Source: a virus
Length of the DNA: 41,642 bases
Virus record (IMG/VR): IMGVR_UViG_3300040770_000030
Location: 1 to 41,642 of that record
Direction: 5' to 3' (one strand)
The position numbers and the translations under genes are program-made. The notes under the pieces are model-generated. The model had not been told where the DNA came from. It made no database searches and worked only from the letters and a program-made list of their open reading frames with translations. This document shows positions 6,129-39,490 of the stretch, one piece after another. The first letter of the stretch is position 1, and the number at the start of each line of letters is the position of its first letter.

Positions 6129-6305
6129 TTATTTAACTGGGCATTTGCCCGTTGGGTTATAAAAGTCGCCGGCTTTCACTGGCTTGTCCGTCGGATACCA
6201 AACATCACGCATTCGCTTTAGCTCAGCGCGTCCTGCTGCACCCTTCTTTTGTAGCACCGCTACCTTTCGGAAGTGTGCCGTTGCCTTCTTGGCTACTCGG
6301 CTCAT
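6129..6305 (-). CDS. Small basic early protein, 58 aa
   Basis: The frame reads MSRVAKKATAHFRKVAVLQ, continues KKGAAGRAELKRMRDVWYP, and ends in GKCPVK. About 14 Lys/Arg residues make it strongly basic, so nucleic-acid binding is possible but unproven. AGGAT lies 5 nt before the ATG. It is the first gene after the large stem-loop at 6319-6402 and begins the compact early operon. Confidence 0.7.
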   Translation of the reverse strand: MSRVAKKATAHFRKVAVLQKKGAAGRAELKRMRDVWYPTDKPVKAGDFYNPTGKCPVK

Positions 6306-6318
6306 TCTATCATCCTAT

Positions 6319-6402
6319 TGGGATTCCTGAGTGTGCACTAGAGGCCGTAACGATCCGCTTTAGGGTCTGATCTATTGGCCTAGTGCACACTCAGCAATCC
6401 CA
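6319..6402 (-). other. Long stem-loop, 23-bp arms with one mismatch
   Basis: The arms at 6319-6341 and 6380-6402 are complementary at 22 of 23 positions and enclose a 38-nt loop. The structure lies in the leader 14 nt before the start of the 58-residue gene and is far stronger than a typical terminator, but no U-run follows on the minus strand. It may be an RNase III processing site like those separating T7 early messages, or a leader controlling the early operon. Confidence 0.7.
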
Positions 6403-6708
6403 TCTAGATTGCTTGCCACCTCTGTGGACTTATCAGGGGCTTGCGCCGACTGATGTCTTGTCTACCCGCTCTCGCGCTTCGACTCTGGCCTAGACTGGCC
6501 CCGGTACACTTCTTCCGCCTACTGGGCGACGGTGCTGTATTGTAGGAACTTCCCCGCCTAACAGTTTGGGCGGCTCGGGCTTGCGCCGTTGCTAGGTAGT
6601 TGTCGCTTCTTGGTCTACCGGGCACAAGTGCCAAGCTTTGCAGTCCACATTCGGCCTATCTAGCCGCACCCGGTAGCAGGGTGATCCTGTTCGTGTTGCT
6701 TGGTGGCC
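6403..6708 (-). other. Untranslated early leader, about 300 nt
   Basis: This lies between the last early promoter (6709-6737) and the long stem-loop. A 76-codon minus frame exists but uses a TTG start without a ribosome-binding site and is very Arg/Ser-rich, so I do not call it. Short GC-rich inverted repeats occur (for example CCGCC...GGCGG near 6555-6575), so it may be a structured leader or a small RNA. I could not match it to a known RNA family. Confidence 0.4.
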
Positions 6709-6737
6709 ATTCTAGCGCCACCTATTCAGCTTGTCAA
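6709..6737 (-). promoter_or_regulatory. Early sigma70 promoter (TTGACA-N17-TAGAAT)
   Basis: The -35 box is TTGACA at 6737-6732 and the -10 box TAGAAT at 6714-6709, 17 nt apart. It reads into the 300-nt leader and the early gene run. Its -35 lies in the arm of the inverted repeat 6731-6741/6786-6796. Confidence 0.75.
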
Positions 6738-6796
6738 GTGGCCCCGAACTCTTCGCGGCATGTGCTGGATAATTCAACCAGCGTACCACTTGACAA
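6731..6796. repeat. 11-bp inverted repeat between two early promoters
   Basis: TTGTCAAGTGG (6731-6741) and CCACTTGACAA (6786-6796) are perfect complements. The inner part holds a further GCTGG/CCAGC hairpin with a 9-nt loop. One arm lies just downstream of the -10 of the promoter at 6802-6829, the other contains the -35 of the promoter at 6709-6737, the same layout as in the two gene-bearing modules upstream. Confidence 0.7.
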
Positions 6797-6801
6797 CTCA
6801 T

Positions 6802-6829
6802 AGTCTACAGCGTTCTTGCTACTTGTCAA
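6802..6829 (-). promoter_or_regulatory. Early sigma70 promoter (TTGACA-N16-TAGACT)
   Basis: The -35 TTGACA is at 6829-6824 and the -10 TAGACT at 6807-6802. The spacer ends AGCAAGAACGCTG, identical to that of the promoter at 7517-7544, so the two probably arose by duplication. The initial transcribed region carries TTGTCAAG, complementary to its own -35 region. Confidence 0.65.
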
Positions 6830-6904
6830 GCGCTATCGGCTTCCTACCCGATCCGCCTCGCCCGGTACTAGCTCCGTGGCCCTGTTCCCGACTTGACAAC
6901 TCAC

Positions 6905-6932
6905 ATTCTACAGCGTTTATACAGCTTGTCAA
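6905..6932 (-). promoter_or_regulatory. Early sigma70 promoter (TTGACA-N16-TAGAAT)
   Basis: The -35 TTGACA is at 6932-6927 and the -10 TAGAAT at 6910-6905. The spacer ends AAACGCTG as in its sister promoters. Two bases of the -35 overlap the end of the 17-bp inverted repeat that encloses the 65-residue gene. Confidence 0.75.
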
Positions 6933-7176
6933 CCCCTTTGGTAACTAGCCTTGTCGGCCTAGTTCCACACTTTACCGTTTTCTGGTCCGGCGGCATTTAG
7001 TGCCGCTAGCCTGAAAGCATACGGCTTTGGCAGTTGCATGATACGCTTTGCCTTTTCCGTCCGGTTAGTGTAGTTCAATTCGTCTTGTTCTGTCAACCAC
7101 TTAGCTAATGCTAGGTTTGCAGCGCTTTCAGACTTATACATGGTAATTTCTCGCATGAGTAGTTACCAAAGGGGTT
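6931..7176. repeat. 17-bp perfect inverted repeat flanking the 65-aa gene
   Basis: AACCCCTTTGGTAACTA (6931-6947) and TAGTTACCAAAGGGGTT (7160-7176) are exact complements. The 5' arm occupies the leader immediately before the start codon; the 3' arm follows the stop by 11 nt and runs into the next -35 box. Pairing would hide the translation start and loop out the whole gene. Confidence 0.85.
6959..7156 (-). CDS. Early module protein, 65 aa
   Basis: MREITMYKSESAANLALAKW... is a small helical protein with a basic middle (NRTEKAKRIMQLPKPY) and an AALNAAGPENGKVWN tail. No family is recognised. Neither the ATG at 7156 nor the one at 7141 has a strong ribosome-binding site; the inverted-repeat arm takes the usual position. 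It has its own promoter (7217-7245), a boxA-like leader and flanking inverted repeats. Being among the first genes transcribed, it is a candidate host-takeover protein. Confidence 0.65.
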   Translation of the reverse strand: MREITMYKSESAANLALAKWLTEQDELNYTNRTEKAKRIMQLPKPYAFRLAALNAAGPENGKVWN

Positions 7177-7182
7177 CACAAA

Positions 7183-7194
7183 CTGTTAAAGAGC
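7183..7194 (-). promoter_or_regulatory. boxA-like antitermination motif
   Basis: The minus strand reads GCTCTTTAACAG about 20-30 nt into the transcript from the promoter at 7217-7245. Eleven of these 12 bases match the boxA core of bacterial rRNA leaders (GCTCTTTAACA), which recruits NusB and NusE. It may protect early phage transcription from Rho. Confidence 0.6.
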
Positions 7195-7216
7195 GATGAT
7201 TCTTTACAACGTGGCC

Positions 7217-7245
7217 AGTGTATCGGCCTGCTCTTAACTTGTCAA
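7217..7245 (-). promoter_or_regulatory. Early sigma70 promoter (TTGACA-N17-TACACT)
   Basis: The -35 TTGACA is at 7245-7240 and the -10 TACACT at 7222-7217. It drives the 65-residue gene module. The -35 directly abuts the 3' arm (7246-7259) of the inverted repeat enclosing the previous gene. Confidence 0.7.
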
Positions 7246-7474
7246 GCCGTCTAAGTGTAGCGCCTATTCCAAGGCGCCGCATTCGCTAGCTGCGATGATA
7301 TTCGCAGTGTCTAGCGCGTCCTGCTTGTCATCCGTATGGTAACTGGCGTTCGGTTTACCGTTGACCCGCACAACGAATTCGCTGTACTCGGTGCAGCGGT
7401 ACACTTTAACATCGTCGTTTACCTTGTGAATTAATCGCATTGTAGTGCCTCCTTTAGGGATACACTTAGACGGC
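7246..7474. repeat. 14-bp perfect inverted repeat flanking the 58-aa gene
   Basis: GCCGTCTAAGTGTA (7246-7259) and TACACTTAGACGGC (7461-7474) are exact complements. One arm lies in the leader between the boxA-like motif and the ribosome-binding site; the other begins 4 nt after the stop codon and abuts the next -35. The layout is the same as for the 17-bp pair but with an unrelated sequence. Confidence 0.85.
7264..7440 (-). CDS. Early module protein, 58 aa
   Basis: MRLIHKVNDDVKVYRCTEYS begins a small protein that continues EFVVRVNGKPNASYHTDDKQ and ends in a helix DALDTANIIAASECGALE. It looks like a compact beta-beta-beta-alpha fold; no family is recognised. The start is certain: AAAGGAGG lies 8 nt upstream. 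An upstream in-frame extension to 7518 would cross the promoter's -10 region and is rejected. This is the first gene of the early array. Confidence 0.82.
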   Translation of the reverse strand: MRLIHKVNDDVKVYRCTEYSEFVVRVNGKPNASYHTDDKQDALDTANIIAASECGALE

Positions 7475-7478
7475 CTGA

Positions 7479-7490
7479 TTGTTAAAGAGT
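7479..7490 (-). promoter_or_regulatory. boxA-like antitermination motif
   Basis: The minus strand reads ACTCTTTAACAA in the leader of the 58-residue gene, about 25 nt after the promoter at 7517-7544. Both leaders place the motif at a similar distance from the start point, preceded by ATCAYC, so it is unlikely to be chance. Confidence 0.6.
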
Positions 7491-7516
7491 GGTGATAGTT
7501 GCCTATCGTGTTGCGC

Positions 7517-7544
7517 ATTCTACAGCGTTCTTGCTATCTGTCAA
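7517..7544 (-). promoter_or_regulatory. Early sigma70 promoter (TTGACA-N16-TAGAAT)
   Basis: The -35 TTGACA is at 7544-7539 and the -10 TAGAAT at 7522-7517. The spacer ends AGCAAGAACGCTG. It drives the 58-residue gene via a leader with a boxA-like motif. Together with TAGAATGCGC it closely resembles what I remember of Pseudomonas rRNA promoters. Confidence 0.78.
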
Positions 7545-7701
7545 CCCGTGTTCTCGCATCCGTTTGGTTGGCTTGCTTGCCTATTACCTGACCCTGTAGC
7601 GCTGGGCTGGTATCAGTACACTAGGCGAAGGGCTGACCGGCTGCTGTACTAGCTGGTTAACTAGGTCGCTTGCGCCGTAGTGCTCGCTTCCCATGCCGGC
7701 C

Positions 7702-7729
7702 ATTCTACAGCGATGCAGCACCCTGTCAA
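7702..7729 (-). promoter_or_regulatory. Early sigma70 promoter (TTGACA-N16-TAGAAT)
   Basis: The -35 TTGACA is at 7729-7724 and the -10 TAGAAT at 7707-7702, with CGCTG before the -10. It is the most upstream clear minus-strand promoter of the array. No inverted-repeat module or solid gene lies between it and the next promoter. Confidence 0.72.
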
Positions 7730-38591: not shown

Positions 38592-39490
38592 GCCTTTGCC
38601 TCTCGTACTCGTTTGAATATAGGGTGTCTGTAGCCTCCCTGCCGGTCACGCTCCATGCAGGTGAACTCGACCCATTGCTTACCTACGAACGCTTCCGGGT
38701 TGTAGTGCATTTGCCTCCCGAGGGCGTGCGGGATACCGTGTGGACTCGCTGTGCTACCATCTTCCAGTAGTACGGATACGGAGCCGGTACGGCCCAGCTT
38801 GTCGCCAACAGCAAGCCCAAGCAAAGGCTGAGCAGTTGTGCACGTAGCTTCGTGCACAGCAGTAATAATACCATCATGTGTTTCCTCTGGCTTGCGTTTG
38901 TACCAGGACCAACTGCGGCTGCGGCTGTAGATGTGGTCCACAGTCTTAACCATCACACCCTCTACACCCAGGCTGCGGCAGTGCGCATACAGTTGGTCGA
39001 TCTGTGCTTCGTTCTCTGCTACCCAGTGCAGCGGGCGTTGGAAGTCTACACGCTTGGCGGTGCGGATTATATCCCGCATGTACTCAAGGCGCATGCCGTA
39101 CTCTAGTTTCGACTCTGGTACGTCGAACAGCAGCACCACAACGTAGCAGCCCACCAGGTCTTTCGGGATGCCACGCTTAGTACGCACGTACCTGTAAGTG
39201 TCATCGAAGTTTGCATTCACCTCGATACCACAGTCTAGCTCAGTCAGCCCGTGCCGTAGGAGCACGCTGTACACCCAAGCACACTGCGACTCAAGGTTGT
39301 ACAGAGGATTCCCGGCGAAGCTCACAACTTCACAGCCCACCGGACTACCACTGTGCACGCAATGAACTAGCTTGAAGTGCGCTCGGATTTCGTCGCGCTT
39401 CTCTTCAACGACCACTGGGAAACTAAAGCGTAGGACACCCTTGAGGTATCGGTCCCGCCACTTCTGGCCTTTCATTAGGGAATCAGTCAT
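38588..39490 (-). CDS. ATP-dependent DNA ligase
   Basis: This 300-residue phage ligase seals Okazaki nicks. Motif III (VVVLLFDVPES), motif IV (GVEGVMVKTVD) and motif V (WYKRKPEETHD) are clear. The C-terminal OB domain follows (GLAVGDKLGRTGSVSVLLED, ... FVGKQWVEFTCMERD). Motif I reads VEEKRDEIRAH with the expected nucleotide-accepting Lys at K31, but the usual Gly of KxDG is Glu (E34). It overlaps both neighbours by 4-8 bp. Confidence 0.88.
   Translation of the reverse strand: MTDSLMKGQKWRDRYLKGVLRFSFPVVVEEKRDEIRAHFKLVHCVHSGSPVGCEVVSFAGNPLYNLESQCAWVYSVLLRHGLTELDCGIEVNANFDDTYRYVRTKRGIPKDLVGCYVVVLLFDVPESKLEYGMRLEYMRDIIRTAKRVDFQRPLHWVAENEAQIDQLYAHCRSLGVEGVMVKTVDHIYSRSRSWSWYKRKPEETHDGIITAVHEATCTTAQPLLGLAVGDKLGRTGSVSVLLEDGSTASPHGIPHALGRQMHYNPEAFVGKQWVEFTCMERDRQGGYRHPIFKRVREAKA

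Follow-up and report, generated by a model that had tools for sequence, protein, structure and literature searches.

The locus studied here raises the question of why small early genes of a phage should be enclosed by inverted repeats that run into the promoter of the following gene. The window, meaning the whole stretch of DNA that was analysed (a virus record of 41.6 kb), encodes a phage-type RNA polymerase, a DNA polymerase, a terminase and tail proteins; a tRNA-His gene also lies at 39281-39355 on the minus strand. The early genes are carried by the minus strand, in a region similar to that of the phiKMV-like Pseudomonas phages LUZ19, PollyC and KBC54 (66-70% match). A promoter scan returned 13 promoter-like sites against 4.5 expected, recovering all five of the minus-strand promoters that a sequence-only reading had placed in series, together with another one upstream (Table 1). 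Gene 2 and the 174-aa early gene gave no relatives as viral-contig queries, and the large gene (1268 aa) had no match when compared with phages by megablast. An Rfam search of the whole window identified no known RNA, and in the early region it gave nothing but noise.

Table 1 Features of the promoter array and of the modules within it.
Feature	Position	Strand	Sequence or remark	Basis
Sixth promoter	7702-7729	minus	upstream of the five	promoter scan
Promoter, module 1	7517-7544	minus	sigma70-type, TTGACA-16-TAGAAT	promoter scan
boxA, module 1	7480-7489	minus	CTCTTTAACA, identical to E. coli rrnB boxA	exact-match scan
5' arm, module 1	7461-7474 (extended helix 7461-7479)	minus	GCCGTCTAAGTGTA	inverted-repeat search
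Gene, module 1	7264-7440	minus	58 aa, phrog_7884 (unknown function)	ORF and family match
3' arm, module 1	7246-7259 (extended helix 7241-7259)	minus	abuts next -35; extended helix enters TTGAC	
Promoter, module 2	7217-7245	minus	sigma70-type, TTGACA-17-TACACT	promoter scan
boxA, module 2	7184-7193	minus	CTCTTTAACA	exact-match scan
5' arm, module 2	7160-7176 (extended 7160-7186)	minus	AACCCCTTTGGTAACTA	inverted-repeat search
Gene, module 2	6959-7141	minus	60 aa (65 aa if the start is 7156), phrog_17580, LKA1 ORF1 homolog	
3' arm, module 2	6931-6947 (extended 6921-6947)	minus	overlaps next -35	
Third promoter	6905-6932	minus	TTGACA-16-TAGAAT	promoter scan
8-bp arm, gene-free interval	6892-6899 (partner 6823-6830)	minus	TTGTCAAG; partner on next -35; weak, without boxA	
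Fourth promoter	6802-6829	minus	TTGACA-16-TAGACT, diverged copy of third	promoter scan, repeat comparison
11-bp arm, second gene-free interval	6786-6796 (partner 6731-6741)	minus	partner on next -35; possible, without boxA	
Fifth promoter	6709-6737	minus	TTGACA-17-TAGAAT	promoter scan

The two gene-bearing modules share one order of elements, namely a sigma70-type promoter, a boxA, the 5' arm, an SD followed by the gene and its stop, and the 3' arm situated on or in the next promoter. The arms of module 1 form a perfect repeat of 14 bp, which lengthens to a 19-bp helix if a G-U and an A-C pair are allowed, and those of module 2 are perfect over 17 bp and extend to 27 nt at 93%. The whole window has only four perfect inverted repeats that measure 12 bp or more and have loops of 30-320 nt, and two of the four are the module arms. 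Among 3000 dinucleotide shuffles of positions 6700-7560, the best inverted repeat reached 14 bp once and 17 bp once; since shuffles almost never attain these lengths, two such repeats in one region are not a product of chance. The repeat search and the shuffles thus confirm the earlier description of small genes enclosed by perfect 14- and 17-bp repeats, and the 3' arms of modules 1 and 2 abut or overlap the following -35 box as described.

That description overlooked the boxA before each 5' arm, which is a pointer to the likely mechanism. The two sites are the only exact copies of CTCTTTAACA in the 41.6 kb, each located approximately 25-30 nt past the -10 box. The E. coli rrnB operon is built in the same order with nearly equal spacing: the boxA CTCTTTAACA is followed after about 3 nt by a leader-trailer helix of 18 perfect base pairs that encloses the 16S rRNA, and a second boxA variant, CTCTTTAAAA, lies ahead of the 23S rRNA as the next unit. 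In rRNA, the leader-trailer helix is reported to be essential, to require more than 17 bp and to contain the RNase III site, and a proposed role of boxA is to keep the leader at the polymerase while the trailer has yet to appear (PMC10250234). The phage modules share with rrn units a boxA soon after a host promoter and a complementary leader and trailer that form a long helix. Unlike rrn, they enclose a short mRNA with its own SD, their arms carry no conserved boxC sequence, and a separate promoter precedes every unit, with the 3' arm overlapping that of the next. An E. coli-type boxC (TGTGTGGGCACT, a consensus of our choice) gave chance-level matches only and none in the arms, and the enclosed sequences are ORFs of 58 and 60 aa with no Rfam match instead of a structural rRNA. 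The module would work like an rrn leader-trailer unit but is not an rrn operon. By this analogy, we consider it likely that the gene modules are laid out after the rRNA transcription units of bacteria, with the 16S rRNA replaced by a small gene for an early protein, and would act as an rRNA-operon mimic with boxA/Nus tethering and an RNase III cut.

Four tests, one of them the frequency of arms behind boxA given below, agree that the pairing of the arms is selected, and the pairing is thereby demonstrated by sequence comparison. In six phiKMV-like modules, 100% of the pair cells are standard and 8 of 18 pairs show two-sided compensatory changes; for Uliginvirus, with four modules, the values are 96% and 11 of 31 pairs. 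In both sets, hand trimming and anchoring of the arms around the helix bias the percentages upward and leave the two-sided changes as the stronger evidence. All or nearly all shuffles scored lower in these compensatory-pair counts, and slid controls were near zero. Exchange of arms within a family left 14-31 bp for own pairs and mostly 5-17 bp for foreign pairs, the exceptions being phages with nearly identical arms. The non-Watson-Crick pairs embedded in the helices comprise 16 G-U, 5 A-C and 3 others (p = 0.013, the pairs being not fully independent and partly due to common ancestry), and this surplus of G-U over A-C fits an RNA helix of the sense strand. In addition to these tests, folding with ViennaRNA, one of the checks proposed by the sequence-only reading, produced the leader-trailer helix in 13 of 13 predicted transcripts with a mean pair probability of 0.85-1.0. 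Another check, covariation of the arms among relatives, also came out in favor of the proposed module-wide RNA stem, because complementarity is kept while the sequence changes in several unrelated phage groups; the stem is consistent with RNase III release as well.

The module recurs across phage genera. In the Pseudomonas aeruginosa phage LKA1, a boxA (937-946) precedes 17-bp arms (952-968/1160-1176) around the gene 2 homolog; the second of these arms shares bases with the TTGACA at an annotated promoter. Contig L001 carries a gene 1 homolog that is 88% identical, with a boxA and 17-bp arms of another sequence. The layout is also found in HHBS14_1, HHBS51_1, L172, L073 and L116, and the 5' half of the module is present in PLS27, whose sequence was read up to a gap. 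Outside the phiKMV-like group, modules were identified in Uliginvirus (Nerthus, with two in series, Alpheus, Achelous, Ulina01, Ulitu01 and Njord), in Cronosvirus (GAP227, Kc318, GY3 and Dev-CD-23823), and in the T5-like Novosibvirus phages PM135, Stubb, RP7 and Proteus phage 1 and Priunavirus phages PR1 and PSTCR5, these T5-like carriers being phages of Proteus and Providencia. The module is also present in L295 and in the T7-like contigs L071 and L130, which carry a gene that is, as we judge from its sequence, presumably ocr-like. A 122-kb phage has two modules in series. Among the phiKMV-like phages of Pseudomonas, the 3' arm reaches the next -35 or stops shortly ahead of it, and in Uliginvirus and the T5-like phages it spans the spacer and -10 of the following promoter. 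In these unrelated phages the distance from boxA to the helix is narrow, with the perfect core mostly 1-7 nt and at most 10 nt away.

Several loci fall outside this pattern. The arrays of LKA1 and LUZ19 both resemble the window in their tandem host-type promoters ahead of early genes, but LKA1 has the full module whereas LUZ19 has promoters with neither boxA nor arms; KBC54 also lacks both boxA and arms. PollyC and SeaP1 possess a boxA with weak arms, for which duplex energies with large loops allowed are not interpretable. The long arms of L069 and L063 were rejected as modules; they are palindromic, lie 24-28 nt from boxA and appear operator-like. In a one-genome-per-species collection, none of 48 chromosomal sites with the boxA-to-TTGACAAG pattern had arms, so chromosomes do not generally carry the boxA module with this spacing. 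Two further arrangements were noticed. On L107 (8125-8480), a 35-bp helix (33 Watson-Crick and 2 G-U pairs) includes boxA, and the opposite strand also reads boxA plus arm. On L283 (160-670) and about ten similar contigs, a separate family shows boxA, a 12-bp arm, a gene, the second arm, 8 nt and another boxA, followed by an apparently non-coding stretch.

Of 194 distinct boxA sites, 21 are followed at a distance of 0-10 nt by an arm that measures 12 bp or more; for random positions drawn from these loci, the figure is 39 of 8000. The 194 sites come from viral loci among the matches listed, so that frequencies are rough, and the near relatives included make the rate of 21 in 194 overstate independence. 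The remaining 173 of these sampled sites, among the matches listed, have no long arm, and a boxA-SD-ATG scan likewise yielded, among the matches listed, mostly loci without arms. The early region of T7 resembles the modules in its host promoters (boxA lies downstream of A1-A3), its boxA and its small early genes, but has no long-range arm after the boxA at 814-823, which we take to be followed by the known R0.3 leader. T7 early RNA is cut by RNase III, at local hairpins between the early genes. A genetic role of the T7 boxA in early transcription by the host polymerase has been described (PMC3709561). T7 and the armless majority of phage boxA sites among the matches listed indicate that boxA and helix are separable, and they favor a reading in which the arms form only a long-range stem for RNase III processing or for protection, with boxA next to it by itself as an antitermination element, as in T7. 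The narrow offset of the helix behind boxA in unrelated phages, as in rrn, and the helices that take in boxA itself (L107) argue against such independence, and we regard this reading as unlikely. The lambda nut sites are likewise comparable in using boxA/Nus antitermination in phage early transcripts, but depend on boxB and the N protein, and the nut site includes no enclosing helix.

The arms might instead act at the DNA level, as terminal inverted repeats or homology borders for the exchange of early genes. Near-identical arms do surround different ORFs in L001, L073, HHBS14_1 and L172, and the 5' half of PLS27 agrees with them. On the other hand, one gene family is flanked by different yet self-complementary arms (the window compared with L001 and LKA1), and neither the G-U excess on the sense strand nor the narrow boxA offset is expected of DNA cassettes. 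The arms also lie within promoters of differing sequence, no direct repeats were seen by eye outside them, and no recombinase gene was noted in the modules, whose ORFs match families of unknown function or nothing. We therefore judge a primary role in DNA exchange very unlikely. The closely similar arms around different ORFs in L001, L073, HHBS14_1 and L172 imply that arms also act as constant borders, which fits alongside the RNA reading without taking its place; the cassette exchange suggested earlier survives as a by-product only.

Another possibility is that the trailer competes for boxA, unloading the Nus complex at the end of the module and resetting the polymerase. In L107, the whole of boxA lies within the helix. 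Partial pairing of boxA with the spacer that follows the next -35 occurs in L073 and in Nerthus module 1, and a spacer-boxA pairing with one bulge can be drawn by eye in module 1 of the window. Such a switch is not general, however, as the helices of LKA1, L001 and Uliginvirus start past boxA, and we rate it the least probable of the readings considered.

For the rRNA-operon mimic, the following course may be envisaged. The host RNA polymerase would initiate at the sigma70-type promoter of the module, and the boxA of the nascent leader would load NusB/S10 and other Nus factors, with antitermination and tethering of the leader to the polymerase expected by analogy with rrn. The 5' arm right behind boxA would then stay at the polymerase while the gene is transcribed, until the polymerase enters the next promoter and the newly exposed 3' arm pairs with it, so that a leader-trailer helix of approximately 17-35 bp closes around the gene. 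RNase III probably cuts this helix, releasing a one-module mRNA with defined, protected ends, possibly stabilized, and leaving a fresh 5' end near the next module. The presumed benefit would be uniform one-module mRNAs, regardless of whether transcription began at the own or an upstream promoter. The translation block by read-through transcripts that had also been suggested is unlikely as a role, since the SD of module 1 lies in the loop just past the 5' arm and not within it, and transcripts that start at the module's own promoter contain it. The position of the 3' arm on the next promoter may follow from compact packing, as there is little other non-coding space between the stop and the next start site.

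The sequence-only reading had extended the layout to two gene-free intervals further downstream, and here its outcome is divided. Arms of 8 and 11 bp are indeed present, and a local test at their positions gave p = 0.006 and p < 0.001. They are weak and lack boxA, and a best repeat of 8 bp is the outcome of most shuffles of 6700-7560. Moreover, the promoters that precede the two intervals are diverged copies of each other (81% identity over 47 nt), so the two arm pairs are not independent. By-eye reading of the LKA1 and L001 promoter arrays revealed no equivalent. Gene-free modules are possible but not established.

Collectively, the modules suggest that these phages borrow the rRNA-making machinery of the cell to produce and trim their first messages. 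The broader proposal, that lytic phages of several unrelated lineages apply boxA-tethered closure of leader and trailer to early mRNAs that encode proteins and that a row of promoters thereby becomes a set of self-delimiting, exchangeable transcripts, stands at about even chances in our judgment. If true, no boxA/leader-trailer system acting on mRNA would have been known before this one, and phages would exploit the whole rRNA route of transcription, folding and processing for takeover genes, beyond Nus antitermination; a search of open-access papers found no description of arms combined with boxA in phages. The modules could also serve as small models for testing whether boxA tethering drives the pairing of leader and trailer, a question still open in the field of ribosome biogenesis and difficult to address on rRNA. 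The signature of promoter, boxA, arm, ORF and arm may further help to find unannotated early genes, for example in the PM135 records. In PM135 (L060:6280-6900), two small ORFs lie inside a boxA module with no annotated feature, and relatives annotate two hypothetical proteins there.

Downstream of the array, a non-coding leader of approximately 400 nt occupies positions 6303-6702 (minus strand), where it separates the last host promoter from the early gene that comes first downstream. The same leader is found in LKA1 (L131:1205-1570), L001 (8397-8759) and L264 (2262-2622), with about 90% mean column identity among LKA1, L001, HHBS14_1 and HHBS51_1. It is strongly structured (MFE -153 kcal/mol, z -4.6), with two-sided changes at 11 of 96 predicted pairs in an alignment of only four sequences. 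No Rfam family was found for this leader, and it may represent a non-coding RNA of phages that is new. A 23-nt inverted repeat (96%) with a 38-nt loop (6319-6341/6380-6402, minus strand) directly precedes the first ORF downstream and looks like a local processing stem of the RNase III type.
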